From NCBI RefSeq assembly GCF_900604285.1, contig NZ_UWNY01000001.1:744001-808000 (forward strand): a DNA stretch of 64,000 nucleotides, given 5' to 3'. Origin of the DNA: Varibaculum vaginae (GTDB lineage: Bacteria; Actinomycetota; Actinomycetes; Actinomycetales; Actinomycetaceae). Shown here piece after piece: positions 6,734 to 26,321 of this stretch; positions within the stretch are counted from its first letter, which is position 1, and each line of letters starts with the position of its first letter. Under the pieces are notes generated by a model that searched no databases, had not been told where the DNA came from, and saw only the letters and a list, made by a program, of their open reading frames with translations. The translations under genes and the position numbers were made by a program.

Positions 6734-8191
6734 CTAATCATTTGCGCGTTGCTGCAGCAGCCGCAAACGCCGATGCAGGGGGTGAGTCGCGAAAATTGAG
6801 GCGGCTGTAAATGCTAAACCAGCTAGCAGTAAAAGGCTCATTTGGGTTACGGAATTCTCTGGGGTTTGTCCGGTATGTTCCTTTAGCATTTGTACCATCG
6901 GCATGGCAGCTATTAGCCCCAATAACCCTCCTCCCAGTACGGAGACTGCAAGTGGCCCCAGGGTTTCCAGCCACATTGAACGCAGCTCAAAGCCGCGCGG
7001 GGCACCCATTTTTGCGAGAGCTCGGGACTGCTGGGCGTTTTCAATCACGGTTGCCGCTTGGGTGATCAGCATAGCGCAGGCGCAAAGCGTGAAACTGACC
7101 GCCAGGGTAATCATGGTGCCAGTGTGGAAATCCCAGCGAGTCGAAGAGATAAAATTATTGGAAAGATTATCGGAATCTTCGCTATTAACAAGCACTGGTG
7201 ACATGGCCACGAAACCCGCGATAAAAGCTAAGAATCCCATGCCGCTGACACGTCGCCAGGTAGTTTTGGGGTCAGCCGCTATCCGCCGTGAAGCCAATAC
7301 CATTGCGGGAGTAGGTACCTTTGCTAATAAGCGGGCATTCAGCTGCAATAGATAGGGACCGAGTAAGTTAAATCCCAAAATAACTACCAGGATTATGCCG
7401 GATAACGCCACGAGAATCCAGGTTTTCGATAGCCCCAAGGTTAGTTGACTGACTATGAAAGCGGTGACAAAAATAGCTATCGCAGCTACCAAGCGCCACA
7501 CACGCAGTGCCGGTTGGCTCGCCCTGCGAGTTACTCCCAAAGGGGAAACTCTCACCTGTTGCATTCCCCACCAGGAAGAAATCTGTCCCAGGAAAATCAT
7601 TACTGCCAGTACTGTTAATAGTAGCCACCAGGGTAGTAACATCTCTTTAGCCGCTATGAATTTGGCTTCGATTTTAAGAGAAGTCCAGGTGGGAAGGGTC
7701 GCTAAATAAAGAGTGGTACCGATCAGGGAACCGATAACCGCTTGGAGGAGAGCGTCTAGCATAGTAATCTTGGTTACTTCTAGAGAGGACAGCCCCAACA
7801 GGCGTAAAGCTGCCAAACGCTTTTCGCGTCCTCGTGCCCCCAATACTGCTGCCTTAGTGGCTAGTGAGCATAGAGATGGGATGATCAAGGTGCAGGCCAA
7901 AATGGCTAACAGGAAATAGAACTTTAGAATGATTTCGAAACTTGCATCTACTTTAAGTAGTTGGGCAGCAATTCCCGTAGGATGCATCCAGCGATGGTAA
8001 AACATATAGGTGCCGCCGGCAATCGTTAAAGCTAACCCGGCGCACACCGTGTAGGCCAGGATAGATGCTAAATAAAGCAGAGACTCACCCTGGCGAGAGC
8101 GGAAACGGGCTTTAGTTAGATGCCAGGTTAACCAGTTTAGGTTCTGGGTGCGCGCGGAGACAGCCGGGCTGGCTATGTTAGTGCTCGACAT
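6734..8191 (-). CDS. FtsX-like ABC transporter permease
   Basis: A 485-residue membrane protein with about eight hydrophobic segments in two blocks, residues 35-260 and 310-480, and a modest extracytoplasmic loop. The layout and the segment LGARGREKRLAALRLLGLSSLEVTKI, a coupling region typical of FtsX/MacB-family permeases, place it in that family. Its start overlaps the stop of the ATPase gene by one base. Such pairs export lipids or peptides or relay bacitracin-type antibiotic signals; no sensor kinase or regulator is next to this pair, so the substrate is open. Confidence 0.82.
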   Translation of the reverse strand: MSSTNIASPAVSARTQNLNWLTWHLTKARFRSRQGESLLYLASILAYTVCAGLALTIAGGTYMFYHRWMHPTGIAAQLLKVDASFEIILKFYFLLAILACTLIIPSLCSLATKAAVLGARGREKRLAALRLLGLSSLEVTKITMLDALLQAVIGSLIGTTLYLATLPTWTSLKIEAKFIAAKEMLLPWWLLLTVLAVMIFLGQISSWWGMQQVRVSPLGVTRRASQPALRVWRLVAAIAIFVTAFIVSQLTLGLSKTWILVALSGIILVVILGFNLLGPYLLQLNARLLAKVPTPAMVLASRRIAADPKTTWRRVSGMGFLAFIAGFVAMSPVLVNSEDSDNLSNNFISSTRWDFHTGTMITLAVSFTLCACAMLITQAATVIENAQQSRALAKMGAPRGFELRSMWLETLGPLAVSVLGGGLLGLIAAMPMVQMLKEHTGQTPENSVTQMSLLLLAGLAFTAASIFATHPLHRRLRLLQQRAND

Positions 8192-8901
8192 TATGCCCTC
8201 CTTGAATGCGGCGCTAAAGCACGATCAGAATGGATTTGGCCATCCCGAATCTCAATCAGGCGTGAACACCATTGCGCTACGTTGATATCGTGGGTTACCA
8301 GCACTAATGCTGCTCCGCAGTGTTGTACTTCCCGGGTTAAAGTTTCCATCATTTCGTATCCGGTAGCTTGATCGAGGGCACCAGAAGGTTCATCCGCAAA
8401 AACCACTTTCGGGTTGCCAATCAGAGCGCGGGCAATGGCTACCCGTTGCGCCTGACCTCCAGACATATCGCCGGGGCGGCGCTTTTTAAGCTCTGAAAGT
8501 CCCAACTGGGCGAGTAGGTGATCTGCGCGTTTTAAAGCTTTAGGCAAGAGGGTGCCGGTCAGAATAAGGGGGAGCGCCACGTTTTCACGGGCAGGCAGCT
8601 CGGGAATGAGTTGCCCATCTTGGAACACAAACCCGAATTGGCTAAGCCGCAACCGGGAGCGCTTCACGTCTTTTTGTGCCGCGATATCCTCGCCCCGGAA
8701 TAAGACCTTTCCAGATTCCGGAACCAGAACGCCGGATAAACAATGCAGCAGGGTGGATTTTCCTGACCCCGATGGCCCCATGATTGCCACCGACTCGCCC
8801 TCGTGAATTTGGAGAGAAACCCCGGAGAGGGCGTGGACGTTTCCAAAACTTTTCATGATGTTATCGGTGCTGAGCACCTCTTTTTCTTCGTATTGGTTCA
8901 T
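8191..8901 (-). CDS. ABC transporter ATP-binding protein (LolD/MacB type)
   Basis: A 236-residue ATPase with Walker A GPSGSGKSTLL, Q-loop VFQDGQLIPEL, signature MSGGQAQRVAIARAL, Walker B VVFADEPSGALD and switch His in LVTHDINVA. The ADEPSGALD version of Walker B is usual for ATPases that partner FtsX-like permeases. It is the first gene of a two-gene operon and diverges from the ABC-F gene across a 339-bp control region. Confidence 0.9.
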   Translation of the reverse strand: MNQYEEKEVLSTDNIMKSFGNVHALSGVSLQIHEGESVAIMGPSGSGKSTLLHCLSGVLVPESGKVLFRGEDIAAQKDVKRSRLRLSQFGFVFQDGQLIPELPARENVALPLILTGTLLPKALKRADHLLAQLGLSELKKRRPGDMSGGQAQRVAIARALIGNPKVVFADEPSGALDQATGYEMMETLTREVQHCGAALVLVTHDINVAQWCSRLIEIRDGQIHSDRALAPHSRRA

Positions 8902-9028: not shown

Positions 9029-9141
9029 CGCAACTTTCGGGTCAGGAATCATGATTTACCGTGATTGCCTGGAAACGGGCACCTATAGCTATTCGGCAAA
9101 AGGTTAGCTAAAATCAAGGTAGGTAACGCGCCAGCTGCCCG

Positions 9142-9240
9142 TTATATTATCCAGGCGAGGAGCTAATTTCCGATGACTTTGTAATCTCTACTCAGCTCAG
9201 CTGAGACGCTGCCCTTAATCGTTGCGTCCTGGAGATTATT
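9142..9240 (+). promoter_or_regulatory. Leader with possible three-codon uORF (MTL) and RBS-sequestering helix before the ABC-F gene
   Basis: A TATATTAT -10-like element at 9143-9150 is followed by a ribosome-binding site GAGGAG (9157-9162) and the mini-ORF ATG ACT TTG TAA at 9173-9184. Directly after, TAATCTC (9182-9188) can pair with GAGATTA (9232-9238), which contains the ABC-F ribosome-binding site GGAG; a small hairpin CTCAGC-TCA-GCTGAG (9191-9205) lies between. This is the layout of translational attenuators that respond to ribosome-targeting antibiotics. The pairing is seen in sequence; the regulation is inferred. Confidence 0.5.
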
Positions 9241-10866
9241 ATGTTTGTCATCATTCTCGAAAATATTTCTTTTTCATACTCCTCTAAACCGTTGCTTGAA
9301 AACATCAGTTTGCAGGTAGGGGAGCGCGAGCGTGCCTGTTTAGTTGGACCTAATGGTTGCGGGAAAACCACCCTGCTTCGCATTGCTTCCCAGGATCTTT
9401 TGCCAGAACAAGGCAAGGTCAAAATCGAGGGAGTAAATTCTGAGTTCTTTCAGGTACCGGCGATTGAACACTTTCGTGGAAGCGCCGGAGATTACCTCGA
9501 CTGCGCTTTGCGTCCTCTAGGAAATATCGCTACCCAGTTTCAGGACGCGACCACCAAAATGAGCCAAGGTATTGGTACTGCCCAGGAGGGGCAGCGCTAT
9601 GACCAGCTACTTGCCTTAATGAGCTGTTTTGATATTTGGTCGCTCGAGACACGGCTCACTGGAGTTCTGGCGAGGCTGGGCTTGAGGGCGCTCACAGGAT
9701 CAGGACGTGACCGCAGTTTAAGCAGTATGTCCCCGGGGGAGCGGGGGAGGCTGCAACTGGCGGTCACGCTAATCGTGAAGCCCGAGGTGTTGATTTTGGA
9801 TGAACCCACCAATCATTTAGACGCTCGTGCAATCGATTTTCTAGCAGAAACCGTTAATAAGTGGAGAGGCGCGGTTTTGATTTCGAGTCACGACCGGGCG
9901 TTCATCGAGGACACCGCCACGGTTATTTACGATATGGACGTAAGGGTATGGAATGAACTCGCTAAAGCTACTGGTAGTAGTCAGGTTACTGGTCTCTATC
10001 GCTGCGCGGGCGCCTACTCGAAATATTTAGCTGAAAAAACGAGTGCCCGCCGTAAGCTCCGGGGCTTACATACAGCTCAGCAGGCCGAGAAACGGTTACT
10101 GAGAAAACATCGCCAGGAAGCTAGCAAGATAGCTCGCGGGGGCGTGCGCCTGGCGAGCGCTGAGGGTAAAGCCAAGAAGTTTTTTGCAGATCGCGCTGCT
10201 GCCACCGCGCAGCGCCGAATGCGAAATGACGATATGCGAGGCGAGCGTCTTAGCAACCAGGAAGTACGTAGACCCTGTAGCTATGACCTGGCTTTTGAGC
10301 TCAATCAACCAGCTGTAAGCACCGGAATCGCGGTGGCTGCCCGTCATGCCGCAGTTGCCGGCCGTCTGGCGCCGGTCAGTTTTGATCTTTCCTACGGAGA
10401 GCATCTGCTGGTCACCGGTGCCAATGGCTCTGGAAAATCTACCTTACTGAATTGGATCTATCGCGGGCAGCCACCCGAGGGTGCGCAAAGTAGCGGCACA
10501 ATCACCGGCGAGCGGAGGGTCGGGCTGGTGCCTCAGCAGCTTCCTCAGGAAAACGATCCCGGGTTTACTAGCCCCGTTTGGAAAAATGGTATCGGTGAGG
10601 CCGGGAAAGGCATCCTCCATCCTTCCCTGTGGACCAAGCCTATCCCGGAGCTGTCAGCCGGTAACCAGCGTCGAGCCCAAATTGCGTTAGCGCTGGCTGC
10701 CTCGCCCTCCTTGCTCATAATTGATGAGCCTACCAACTACCTAGACTTGGAGGCGATGCAAGCGCTGGAAGAAGCATTGCATGGTTGGGAGGGGACGCTA
10801 ATCGTAGCAAGCCATGACAGGTGGCTGATCAGCCGCTGGCAAGGTAGACAAATCAATATCCGTTAG
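9241..10866 (+). CDS. ABC-F family ATPase, likely ribosome protection (antibiotic resistance type)
   Basis: A 541-residue soluble protein with two ABC domains in one chain and no membrane segment, which defines ABC-F. Domain 1 has Walker A GPNGCGKTT (from residue 36), signature MSPGERGRLQLA and Walker B LILDEPTNHLD; domain 2 has GANGSGKST, LSAGNQRRAQIA and LIIDEPTNYLD. The linker between them is long, basic and probably helical, as in proteins that reach into the ribosomal exit site. The closest types I recall are actinobacterial macrolide/lincosamide/streptogramin-type ABC-F factors. The MTL leader upstream supports drug-inducible expression. A housekeeping EttA-like role is less likely because the tooth-and-linker region differs. 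Confidence 0.85.
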   Translation: MFVIILENISFSYSSKPLLENISLQVGERERACLVGPNGCGKTTLLRIASQDLLPEQGKVKIEGVNSEFFQVPAIEHFRGSAGDYLDCALRPLGNIATQFQDATTKMSQGIGTAQEGQRYDQLLALMSCFDIWSLETRLTGVLARLGLRALTGSGRDRSLSSMSPGERGRLQLAVTLIVKPEVLILDEPTNHLDARAIDFLAETVNKWRGAVLISSHDRAFIEDTATVIYDMDVRVWNELAKATGSSQVTGLYRCAGAYSKYLAEKTSARRKLRGLHTAQQAEKRLLRKHRQEASKIARGGVRLASAEGKAKKFFADRAAATAQRRMRNDDMRGERLSNQEVRRPCSYDLAFELNQPAVSTGIAVAARHAAVAGRLAPVSFDLSYGEHLLVTGANGSGKSTLLNWIYRGQPPEGAQSSGTITGERRVGLVPQQLPQENDPGFTSPVWKNGIGEAGKGILHPSLWTKPIPELSAGNQRRAQIALALAASPSLLIIDEPTNYLDLEAMQALEEALHGWEGTLIVASHDRWLISRWQGRQINIR

Positions 10867-11070: not shown

Positions 11071-11343
11071 ATGGGAGCTAGCACTTTAACTGTCAGAATT
11101 GATAGCGGGTTAAAAGAAGAAACAGCAAAAGTGGTGGAGAGCTACGGTCTTGATTTATCGTCGGTGATCCGAGCATTTTTCACTGAAATAGTGAACACTG
11201 AGTCCATCCCGCTATCCTTTGATTACCGGCGACCTAATGCCGAGAGTCTGGACGCTATTCGTGAAACCGAGCAGATGATTGCGCGTGGTGAAGGTAAAAC
11301 CTATGCAAGTGGTCGGGATGTTATCGAAGCAGCGTTAGCATGA
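11071..11343 (+). CDS. DinJ/RelB-family antitoxin
   Basis: A 90-residue protein with the DinJ/RelB ribbon-helix-helix N-terminus (LTVRIDSGLKEETAKVVESYGLDLSSVIRAFF), followed by a hydrophilic C-terminal half that would wrap the toxin. A GAGGAGG ribosome-binding site lies six to eight bases before the ATG. The stop overlaps the toxin start as ATGA, giving translational coupling. Such antitoxins usually repress their own promoter together with the toxin. Confidence 0.88.
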   Translation: MGASTLTVRIDSGLKEETAKVVESYGLDLSSVIRAFFTEIVNTESIPLSFDYRRPNAESLDAIRETEQMIARGEGKTYASGRDVIEAALA

Positions 11344-11684
11344 ATGGGAGGCTTACAGCCAAGTTCACTTCTGCTTTTAGTAGGGATCTAAAGAAAAAAG
11401 CTGCTAAAAGACAGGGGAATCTCGATGAACTGGAGGCTGTCATTGATCTGATTTTAGAAAACTCGCGTGAATCGCGCGGTATTCTGAAGCAACGCCACAG
11501 AATGCATAAGCTCTCTGGCCAATGGGCTGGGAGCAATGAGTGCCACGTGGCTAATGCGGGTGATTGGTTGGTGATTTGGAGAACCTCCAGACAGGTTGCC
11601 TATTTTCAACGAACCGGAAGTCACAATGAACTTTTCGTAGGTAAAGACGAGATAGTGGGTACTGCACAAAGCAGCGGACGTTAA
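11340..11684 (+). CDS. YafQ-family mRNA interferase toxin
   Basis: A 114-residue RelE-superfamily toxin of the YafQ branch, expected to cut mRNA on the ribosome. The YafQ active-site pattern is intact: His in RHRMHKLSGQW, His in NECHVA, the Asp-Trp in GDWLVIW, and Arg, His and Phe in RTGSHNELF. The tail after that motif is about 18 residues longer than usual. It partners the overlapping DinJ-type antitoxin. Confidence 0.88.
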   Translation: MNGRLTAKFTSAFSRDLKKKAAKRQGNLDELEAVIDLILENSRESRGILKQRHRMHKLSGQWAGSNECHVANAGDWLVIWRTSRQVAYFQRTGSHNELFVGKDEIVGTAQSSGR

Positions 11685-11746
11685 TGCTCATAAGCTGTCT
11701 AAACTCGGGCGAGATTTTGATGGTTCCGCCGCAGGAGAAGTTTTTT

Positions 11747-11810
11747 AATTTGTGCTGACGATTATTTATGTTCTGCGTACAAAAACCATTAGAGGCGGGA
11801 AGGGGCTAAC
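11747..11810 (+). repeat. Diverged copy of a toxin-antitoxin promoter region
   Basis: The stretch beginning AATTTGTGCTGACG resembles the control region in front of the dinJ-like gene (from about 11019) over roughly 60 bases, including a GAGGCGGG where the ribosome-binding site would be. No antitoxin follows, so it looks like the leftover leader of a lost module. The alignment is by eye and imperfect. Confidence 0.4.
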
Positions 11811-11815
11811 TTTAT

Positions 11816-12859
11816 CTATAAACCAGTTAGATCCGAATGCTTCCCATCTGTATTAATATCTAGATGATTCTCGAGAGCAAACTGGTAGATATCTCTGGTT
11901 AGTGGTCGTGAATGCCAGCGGAAAAACATTCCCGAAGTGTTTTGACGCATGGCTTGCAACGCAAAAGTTCTAGCACCTTGTAATATTTTCGGGTATTCTT
12001 CGCAGATTCTTTTTAAGTCACCGCTGGTAAACACTACTTGGTCAGCTGACGTTGAGTTGTAGTCCACTTGGTTAACGAAAAACCCTTGGGTATAACGCTT
12101 CCAAGGTGTCAATAGGGAGAGCAGCCTGCTATGTGAAAACGTTCCGTCGGCAGTATTGAGACAGGAAAGTCCCGAGACCTCCCTTCTCGGGAAGAAAAGA
12201 AGTTCAAGAGTCCCGGTGTTTAGTGTTGCCCAACGACCTCCTGCAGTATTCGGACAATCCGAAATCGTCCAATATCGTCCTTCTAGGTTGATAGCTTCGG
12301 GAACCAGATTTGTTAACGCAAAAACCAAATCGGAGAGAATGGGATCTCGGTATTCATCGGGAACCTGTTTTAGAAACTTCGACGATTCATTTCCCAAAGA
12401 AGGTAATTTTTCTTTGATGCCGCGCAAATCGTATGGACCATCCCCAAGTACCCAAGAATGTTGTTCCTCCACCGGTATCGCTTTATCCAGTTTTGACGGT
12501 TGATTGTGACCTAAGTTCAGAGTGCGGTTCCGCAGGGGCTTACCAGATTCCCGAAATCTACGAATTTCGCTATTTTCTATCTTCGTCAAATTTAAGTTTT
12601 CGGGTACGGACATGAACCATAACTTCTCTATGTCATCCCAGGCTTCATGATGATTGGTATGACCATGCCGGTGCTGGGCAAAACGCGTCACTACATTCTG
12701 TGCTTGACCGACATAAAACTCACCGTTGAAAAACTGGAGGACGTAGATACCTCGGCGTTGTTTTGGAATCAACGCGGAAATTGACTCCAATTGGGAGACA
12801 TTAAAACGCAGATACTTGAGGTTTGCTTTAGCGGGATTTGTGCTATTAGAAGAGGTCAT
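11816..12859 (-). CDS. GIY-YIG nuclease-domain protein
   Basis: About 347 residues from the ATG at 12859; the longer reading from 12910 would run deeper into the toxin gene. Residues 35-115 form a GIY-YIG domain: GIY at 37-39, YVG at 49-51, Arg59 in the TRFAQHR helix, and a Glu in KIENSEIRRFRESGKPLRN at the place of the metal-binding Glu. The catalytic set therefore looks complete. The C-terminal 200 residues include a Trp/Gly-rich segment (GRYWTISDCPNTAGGRWATLN) I cannot assign. The gene starts inside the last codons of the upstream YafQ-type toxin, 14 bases before its stop, so the two are probably cotranscribed. It is probably a DNA-cutting enzyme of a defence or mobile function; its target is unknown. 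Confidence 0.75.
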   Translation of the reverse strand: MTSSNSTNPAKANLKYLRFNVSQLESISALIPKQRRGIYVLQFFNGEFYVGQAQNVVTRFAQHRHGHTNHHEAWDDIEKLWFMSVPENLNLTKIENSEIRRFRESGKPLRNRTLNLGHNQPSKLDKAIPVEEQHSWVLGDGPYDLRGIKEKLPSLGNESSKFLKQVPDEYRDPILSDLVFALTNLVPEAINLEGRYWTISDCPNTAGGRWATLNTGTLELLFFPRREVSGLSCLNTADGTFSHSRLLSLLTPWKRYTQGFFVNQVDYNSTSADQVVFTSGDLKRICEEYPKILQGARTFALQAMRQNTSGMFFRWHSRPLTRDIYQFALENHLDINTDGKHSDLTGL

Positions 12860-13130
12860 CGTGAGATCCGGTTCGGGTGAGTACCAGAAGCAGCTCGCTT
12901 CGCTCGACACGGTAGATCAGTAGCCAATCTCCCTCGAGGTGAATTTCGCGATATCCCTTCCACTGTCCCTGCAGTGCGTGGTCCCGATAACGGATCCGTA
13001 ACTCGCCGCGATCCTGAGCCATTAGGGCTGCAACTGCACGTGCCAACTTCGACGGATCATAATGCTTTTTGAACAGTGCTTTCGCGTCGCGTTTGAACTG
13101 GGAGGTGCGAAAGACTCTAGTTAGCTTCAT
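12846..13130 (-). CDS. YafQ-family mRNA interferase toxin
   Basis: A 94-residue RelE-superfamily toxin with the YafQ pattern: YRDHALQGQWKG, REIHLEGDWLLIY and the terminal RTGSHDDLF. All expected catalytic positions (His/Asp, His, Asp-Trp, Arg, His, Phe) appear present. The start overlaps the antitoxin stop by 14 bases, and the 3' end overlaps the GIY-YIG gene, giving a compact three-gene unit. Confidence 0.88.
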   Translation of the reverse strand: MKLTRVFRTSQFKRDAKALFKKHYDPSKLARAVAALMAQDRGELRIRYRDHALQGQWKGYREIHLEGDWLLIYRVERSELLLVLTRTGSHDDLF

Positions 13131-13371
13131 TAAGATCTGCCATTAACTCAGCGACACTATCAAAGGAAGCTCCGGTGCGGGATTCGGCTTCAGCACGAGC
13201 GAGTAGGTTGGCTGAATTTTCCCGGCGCGGTGTGAACGGAATGCCGTTGCTGGCAATTGACTGCCTCAAAAACATGTTGATTGCAGTGCTCATATCTAAC
13301 CCCAGGTCGCGGAAGAGCTCCGCTGCCTGAGTCTTGGTCTGGTCATCAGTTCGGAACGATATGTTAGCCAC
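13117..13371 (-). CDS. RelB/DinJ-family antitoxin
   Basis: An 84-residue antitoxin with a ribbon-helix-helix start (ISFRTDDQTKTQAAELFRDLGLDMSTAINMFL) and the typical GIPF turn after it. The acidic C-terminal tail should cover the YafQ-type toxin encoded next with a 14-base overlap. It is preceded by 280 bp with no gene I can see (13372-13654). Confidence 0.87.
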   Translation of the reverse strand: MANISFRTDDQTKTQAAELFRDLGLDMSTAINMFLRQSIASNGIPFTPRRENSANLLARAEAESRTGASFDSVAELMADLNEAN

Positions 13372-13654
13372 CAGAAATACCTCTTTTTACGCAATTGCCA
13401 CTACTATGTGCCTACAATAGCATTAATTTTGCGTGATATTAAGAGCTTTAAAAATTTCTTTACTGCCTGAATCTTCCTGGTCGAGGGCGAATAACGGGGA
13501 TGACTTGCTGTTGGAATGGCATTCAAATAGAGCTGCTAGTCGTGACTGTGGTCCCTTCTCTTCTTTCTGGTTAAGTGGGCGTGGGGTGATGTAGAGGTGG
13601 CGGAATCATAACTAAGTGGGCTCGGAACCTTGGAAATGTAGATTGCTGCAATTT

Positions 13655-13921
13655 TTATCTTTCATAGATATCGTGGCGGTGTCCTAAATTGATCGCTAGG
13701 ATCAGCATCTGTGAGTCCATGATGTCGCAGATAACCCGGTAGTCTCCCACGCGATAACGCCAGTAGCCGATTAGTTCGCCTTTCAGGGCTCTACCTTTTG
13801 AGCGGGGATTATCTAGCTGGCTAACAATATGGAGTTCTTTTAGGATTCGCTTCGCGGAGGTGGCGTCAATCTTGCTAAGAGCCTTTTCTGCGCGCCAGGT
13901 GAAATCAATTTTCCATACCAT
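13655..13921 (-). CDS. RelE/ParE-family toxin
   Basis: An 88-residue toxin of the classical RelE type (MVWKIDFTWRAEKALSKID, ALKGELIGYWRYRVGDYRVICDI, ending LGHRHDIYER). The Arg-rich core GYWRYRVGDYR and the C-terminal HRHDIY fit ribosome-dependent mRNA cleavage. It overlaps the antitoxin stop by 17 bases. A deleted copy of this module lies at 10882-10947. Confidence 0.88.
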   Translation of the reverse strand: MVWKIDFTWRAEKALSKIDATSAKRILKELHIVSQLDNPRSKGRALKGELIGYWRYRVGDYRVICDIMDSQMLILAINLGHRHDIYER

Positions 13922-14180
13922 AGCGAGCCATCATTTCTTCTAGGTTAACGGTATCGAGCTGTCCTGCGCGGTAGGCTGCCGAATCTCGGTGTAAAGCGCG
14001 CGCGTAATCTGACACTGGCGCCGCTACTTCGAAGGGGATACGTCGTTCAGTCCCAACTTTTTTGGCAAAAATCGTAAAGGCGGCGGTAAGGGTCAACCCC
14101 ATAGCTTTGCATGCATCTTCCATCGACTCTTTGACATCAGTATCGAGTTTAAAATTAACATTTGATGTTGTTGATTTCAT
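13905..14180 (-). CDS. RelB/DinJ-type antitoxin
   Basis: About 91 residues from the ATG at 14180, chosen because a perfect AGGAGG ribosome-binding site lies seven bases before it; the longer frame to 14243 adds 21 unlikely residues. The N-terminus VNFKLDTDVKESMEDACKAMGLTLTAAFTIF is a ribbon-helix-helix domain, followed by the usual IPFEV turn. It pairs with the overlapping RelE-type toxin. Confidence 0.87.
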   Translation of the reverse strand: MKSTTSNVNFKLDTDVKESMEDACKAMGLTLTAAFTIFAKKVGTERRIPFEVAAPVSDYARALHRDSAAYRAGQLDTVNLEEMMARYGMEN

Positions 14181-14396
14181 TACATAGCCTCCTTTTTTAT
14201 AGTTGTTATCAGTGTATTTCATTATTTTATATTTGTAATCCATTATTTTGCTGGCTACTCCAGGATCCGGGATGCGACTACGGGCTGTCTAATTTTGGGC
14301 GTGATTCCCTAAAGAGAGCAAGAGAAATCGAGTTGCGGAGTTTTTCGATATTCTGACTGAGAGATTTTTAGTTTTTGTGAGACGGGAGCAGAAAAT

Positions 14397-26130: not shown

Positions 26131-26215
26131 ATATTCTTAGATACGAGCGCGCTAGCGTTCACATAGCTTTTTGATGAGTGCAGAAATACCGGTGATAAGC
26201 TCAAGATGACCGTAA

Positions 26216-26298
26216 CGACAGGGGAGCCGAATAGGCTGAGAGTGTCCAAATGGACAGACCCTCGCACCTGAACCAGGTAATGCTGGCGCAGGAAGTCG
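26216..26298 (+). ncRNA. TPP riboswitch (THI box)
   Basis: All hallmarks are present in order: GGGGAGCC (26221), GGCTGAGAG, ACCCTCGCACCTGAACCAGG (the conserved J/P4-P5 core), TAATGCTGGCGCAGGAAG, closed by P1 CGAC (26216-26219) with GTCG (26295-26298). It lies in the leader of the thiamine ABC operon and should lower its expression when thiamine pyrophosphate is plentiful. Confidence 0.95.
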
Positions 26299-26321
26299 AG
26301 TCTCTTACTTGCGCCTGCAAG

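Follow-up and report, generated by a model that had tools for sequence, protein, structure and literature searches.

Can an upstream ORF (uORF) of just three codons, followed immediately by a complement of the downstream ribosome-binding site (RBS), operate as a switch for the expression of an ABC-F gene? This question is raised by a leader on the forward strand of the 64,000-nucleotide stretch of the Varibaculum vaginae genome analyzed here (hereafter the window, whose coordinates are used throughout). The elements listed in the original prediction are all present where it had placed them, namely a Shine-Dalgarno (SD) motif GAGGAG (9157–9162), the uORF ATG ACT TTG TAA coding for MTL (9173–9184), the heptamer TAATCTC (9182–9188), and its complement GAGATTA (9232–9238), ahead of the ABC-F start codon at 9241. 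The proposed RBS-masking pairing likewise held, but its extent had been underestimated at 7 bp: the helix, termed P1, comprises 10 pairs (9181–9190 with 9230–9239), begins at the third base of codon 3, takes in the whole stop codon, and with its 3' strand covers the ABC-F SD, GGAG (9231–9234). P1 encloses two hairpins, viz., P2 (CTCAG..CTGAG, 9191–9205) and P3 (9206–9227, pairing 9206–9209 with 9224–9227), and the leader thereby takes the form of a three-way junction. The segment 9182–9245 folds with −20.5 kcal/mol (z = −3.6), and none of 200 shuffles folds as well. As a genomic control we sampled 464 kb of the same genome with 263 SD-bearing ORFs of at least 200 aa for a three-codon ORF whose stop codon starts a helix, at least six Watson-Crick pairs long, that extends to the RBS: some three-codon ORF lies upstream in 21 of the 263, and only this gene displays the combination. 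Rfam searches of the leader, both strict and permissive, recovered nothing at gathering score, with just two chance-level matches on the opposite strand (E = 1.4 and 3.7). The observation is confirmed and not due to chance; taken with the comparative evidence below, the leader is very probably a real translation switch that would be opened by a stalled ribosome.

The product of the downstream gene (9241–10866; 541 aa) is, by its sequence, an ABC-F protein resembling those that protect the ribosome: it contains two ABC ATPase domains (PF00005, ABC_tran, twice) and no membrane-domain family in Pfam, and its PDB matches are ABC-F proteins, e.g., Uup, VmlR (ExpZ, 6ha8), and VgaL (Lmo0919). The best NCBIfam model is NF000355 (ribo_prot_ABC_F); the TlrC/CarA/OleB/SrmB model gives 244 bits against a cut-off of 800. 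Its assignment to the ribosome-protecting ARE ABC-F proteins is likely rather than certain because the curated NF000355 cut-off was missed (276 of 380 bits), a cut-off that is passed by 40 of 246 genomes of the class and is hence strict for this group. The ABC-F gene is immediately preceded by a divergent ABC transporter pair on the opposite strand (6734–8901), comprised of an ATPase and an FtsX-like permease.

The mini-ORF and the pairing, whose absence from relatives would have counted against the original prediction, are both retained there, with compensatory changes. Across six Varibaculum genomes, 4 of 68 leader positions vary versus 10 of 22 just upstream, and the sole change in the uORF is a synonymous one in the third base of codon 2 (ACT/ACA); the close relatives include Varibaculum cambriense (L093, L094), of which L093 coincides with the contig stretch of the congener genome G002. 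About 20 further relatives from other genera share this layout, which we term class A. An SD precedes the uORF in all 26 class A relatives, and its start codon and length are kept in all except L036, where the stop codon was lost (TGA to CGA; 1431–1442), P1 is otherwise mostly kept, and the ABC-F gene is intact. The conservation of MTL as such holds among the close relatives but not beyond them: codon 2 in class A may specify T, S, K, L, I, V, or N. In nearly all orthologues, the uORF is nonetheless three codons long. Because the length is fixed while the peptide varies, it seems that the position of the arrest, and not the peptide, is what is read.

In the class A alignment, P1 is paired in 94% of the cells. 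Changes on both sides of a pair occur in 24 cells, versus 6.8 in shuffles, and sliding the 3' strand by 1–3 columns reduces the pairing from 91% to 30–46%; this alignment was fitted to the covariance model, and a plain MAFFT alignment agrees with it. Most telling is the second base of the stop codon, which in distinct sequences forms 21 G-C and 9 A-U pairs with its partner and none that are broken, such that UGA stops face UCA (21) and UAA stops face UUA (9). The UAA version is found in three genera (Varibaculum, L032/L034, and L071), and the exchange therefore likely arose more than once. P2 is paired in 99% of cells with three pairs changed on both sides, whereas P3 is weaker (73%; one compensatory pair).

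A sister form of this leader, class B, is found in approximately 39 orthologues (within L045–L092) from other Actinomycetaceae genera, in which a three-codon ORF without an SD encodes MLA, MIA, MDS, MAA, MAS, MFT, MSI, MWN, and other peptides. In 36 of 39 class B loci, exactly 6 nt separate the end of a TANNNT box from the uORF start codon, even though the search for the ORF made no demand for such a box; conversely, when the box was sought first (within 140 nt of the gene), the ORF behind it was three codons long in 38 of 38 orthologues, whereas we estimate that a random ORF would stop at exactly that codon in about 4% of cases. Given this position of the −10 element, class B transcripts should start at the uORF, which thus looks leaderless. 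Here too the strand starting at the stop codon pairs with the cognate RBS: the mean duplex energy is −16.5 kcal/mol in cis versus −11.7 kcal/mol when the strands are swapped between species, and 0 of 5000 permutations are as low. Four leaders (L010, L076, L077, and L085) have almost no sequence in common with that of the window, but the complement in cis is near-perfect in each of them.

In the protein tree (disregarding the position of L211, a mistranslated entry with a very long branch), class A forms a single clade (SH-aLRT 99) adjoining class B lineages, and a single switch of the initiation mode would therefore be the simplest reading; depending on the root, the leaderless form likely came first. 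These comparisons suggest that the Actinomycetaceae ABC-F genes carry a minimal drug sensor in which nothing is fixed but a start codon, the presence of two codons of free choice, and a stop codon with which the anti-RBS helix begins, so that a ribosome halted anywhere in the first three codons would switch the gene on. The mRNA of the sister group would start with the AUG or GUG of the sensor ORF, with the sensing occurring at its 5' end, and the lineage of the window would have switched its initiation mode once while keeping the same logic; we lean toward this broader picture, with some reserve.

Beyond the family, the fixed three-codon form is not general in the wider class: among the 30 top loci there, one has a leaderless three-codon uORF before an ABC-F gene and a few have uORFs of 4–8 codons. 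Other-family ABC-F genes at five loci (L164, L165, L169, L172, and L179) possess leaderless-looking uORFs of 4–8 codons after a TANNNT box, with peptides including MGSL (in three), MRSYY.., and MGSYY... Leaderless-looking three-codon uORFs (MRM, MFL, MWI, MRR, and MIS) also occur at L012, L014, L015, L016, and L020, whose ABC-F proteins show 33–37% identity; these lie about 106–131 nt before the aligned start, leaving room for a terminator. The term "leaderless" is absent from two papers on actinobacterial ABC-F genes, PMC12421871 and PMC8546547.

A covariance model (R1) was searched in 213 Actinomycetaceae genomes and in 396 genomes drawn from across the phylum. The former yielded 31 strong matches (E about 1e-15 or lower), each located ahead of this ABC-F gene or of one of its truncated or decayed copies (the latter in G125, G031, G006, and the first copy in G227), and in the phylum-wide set the only match was the window's own leader. 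A further decayed copy with a weaker match (E = 4e-4) in G162 has also lost the uORF stop, and L140 has two leader copies about 1.1 kb apart (899–992 and 1990–2083), the first of which heads only an ABC-F remnant. As both gene and leader are present in Propionimicrobium lymphophilum (L097), which by its title belongs to another family, the two appear to move together. The plasmids searched contained no leader match, and their ABC-F relatives, from Streptomyces and Streptantibioticus, are only 30–34% identical.

Based on these observations, we propose that the leader is a ribosome-mediated translational attenuator, a reading to which we assign a probability of roughly 0.84. Transcription would start about 50 nt before the mini-ORF. 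In an unstressed cell, ribosomes would translate the three codons and leave fast, and P1 would re-form, sequestering the SD together with the nucleotides that follow it as far as the ABC-F start codon, with the result that little ABC-F protein is made. If an antibiotic arrests a ribosome on the start codon or on either of the two codons after it, the footprint of that ribosome, reaching approximately +16 from the A of the AUG (to 9188), would cover P1 on its 5' strand. P2 and P3 can then remain folded, while the RBS would be freed and the ABC-F protein translated, which might then rescue ribosomes. Counted from the A of the AUG, TAATCTC ends at nucleotide 16 (9173–9188), which is about as far downstream as a ribosome extends when the AUG occupies its P site. 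Folding calculations with +1 to +16 blocked predicted a more open RBS for 25 of 25 leaders of class A (mean 0.29 to 0.50) and for 23 of 26 of class B (mean 0.33 to 0.51), whereas a block extending only to the AUG had no effect (0.28 and 0.33, respectively). For the window's own leader, the predicted change is modest (0.32 to 0.38) because the freed RBS finds other partners in the model, and the predictions show little or no masking or opening in about five of the 26 class B leaders (L048–L051 and L073). The mechanism originally envisaged, in which a ribosome on the mini-ORF frees the ABC-F RBS, thus gains support from conservation, covariation, and constrained folding.

As to the nature of the stalling signal, the leader peptides of ErmC and MsrD are longer and show sequence-specific macrolide arrest. 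The peptide considered here, in contrast, is three residues long and variable, and what its leader would share with these systems is the activation of a downstream gene by ribosome stalling on a leader ORF (PMC10219788, PMC10314930). Since MTL is not conserved beyond close relatives, the comparison points to an arrest at the start or early codons, as with pleuromutilins, lincosamides, and streptogramin A, and not to the ErmC/Msr type. A constant length combined with unconstrained codons agrees with drugs that block early elongation largely irrespective of context; such drugs are stated for the leaders MIN, MR[I/M], and MK[L/Q] (PMC10201436), and toeprints place ribosomes stalled by them at the start codon of the three-codon Are5sc leader (PMC12421871). 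By analogy to these systems, we infer that ribosomes would be stalled by drugs on the uORF, most likely by a pleuromutilin, lincosamide, or streptogramin A, and that the ABC-F gene would function in resistance. An alternative that also accepts the helix as a brake and the mini-ORF as read is that the natural signal is not a drug, with amino-acid or initiation stress, or the ABC-F protein itself, setting the dwell time on the three codons. The lack of a conserved peptide lends this some plausibility, as the helix would open just as well whenever initiation or termination on the three codons is slow, but we regard it as unlikely: the same layout is drug-induced in other ABC-F genes (PMC10201436, PMC9226507, PMC12421871), and the tie of the leader to a single ABC-F gene fits drug sensing.

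Ribosome-mediated attenuation of ABC-F genes by ultrashort uORFs is a known kind of regulation, and the peptide is not "unusually short," as had been stated, because three codons are a usual length in such leaders, as in those of VmlR (MIN), CplR (MR[I/M]), and VmlR2 (MK[L/Q]) (PMC10201436), and of Are5sc (MLV) (PMC12421871). The resistance-leader logic of the original prediction is supported, whereas its ErmC/MsrA-like parallel gives way to VmlR, CplR, and Are5sc, which are closer. In Bacillus subtilis VmlR, initiation at the uORF is needed, the variants MDN, MDK, and MRK still support induction, and control is partly translational; this leader also has polymerase pausing, an intrinsic terminator, and four stem-loops (PMC9226507), in contrast to the single three-way junction of the Varibaculum leader with no terminator and with the stop codon inside the anti-RBS helix. 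The CplR leader of clostridia, which responds to retapamulin and lincomycin, similarly combines its uORF with a hairpin hiding the ABC-F SD, but that hairpin doubles as a terminator with a U tract (PMC10201436), unlike the Varibaculum leader. The leaders of Streptomyces coelicolor Are5sc and of TiaA likewise precede actinobacterial ABC-F genes: lincosamides, pleuromutilins, and streptogramin A, and not erythromycin, stall ribosomes at the uORF start codon, and TiaA control seems translational (PMC12421871); however, their 5'UTRs are longer, at 232 and 194 nt, and are predicted to adopt terminator and antiterminator forms, the uORF of TiaA has nine codons, and the accessible text describes neither a helix starting in the stop codon nor a leaderless uORF. 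The present leaders differ in having a three-way junction without a terminator and with a helix that begins in the stop codon, in their spread with a single gene through Actinomycetaceae, and in their leaderless sister form. Most of the studied ABC-F leaders do use a terminator (PMC10201436, PMC12421871), and the hairpins might by that precedent act on RNA polymerase, as in VmlR, CplR, VgaL, or LmrC, rather than, or more than, on the RBS. This appears highly improbable here: a terminator scan from 9173 to 9240 returned no terminator-like site, inspection of the sequence found no U-run 3' of any leader hairpin, and the conserved 3' strand is the RBS itself. As U-run and terminator are both missing, the control exerted by the attenuator should be translational only.

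The likely promoter supports a transcript that includes the mini-ORF. A probable −10 element, TAAAAT (9109–9114), is conserved in 6 of 6 Varibaculum genomes, although a simple sigma-70 scan did not call it; 25 of 26 class A loci have a TANNNT box matching in at least 4 of 6 positions at 40–61 nt from the downstream mini-ORF, and 14 of 26 have one matching in at least 5 of 6, versus 2.5 expected from shuffles. A conserved TAGCTA (9086–9091) provides a weak −35 region. A start downstream of 9184, which the original prediction had named as speaking against it, is therefore not what the sequence indicates, as far as it can tell. We accordingly give very little credence to a fortuitous complement or a stretch left untranscribed by a start below 9184, notwithstanding the weak −35 and a second AT-rich stretch (TATATT, about 9143) that could act as a −10, in the face of the covariation, the family-wide conservation, and the exact spacing of the −10 element in the sister group.

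The leader would represent a compact attenuator that works without a terminator, in a family of actinobacteria associated with humans, and predicts an inducible tolerance to lincosamides, pleuromutilins, or streptogramin A that a susceptibility test under non-induced conditions could miss. Its roughly 65 versions, with two initiation modes, variable peptides, and a fixed length, constitute a natural series for exploring which ribosome behavior on a three-codon ORF is required for switching a gene. Elsewhere in the window, three type II toxin-antitoxin-like pairs recognized with Pfam lie close together (11071–14243), viz., RelB/YafQ (11071–11684), YafQ/RelB (12846–13371), and ParE/RelB (13655–14243), with a GIY-YIG protein (11816–12910) amid them, and a TPP riboswitch occurs at 26210–26311 (Rfam RF00059, 66 bits).
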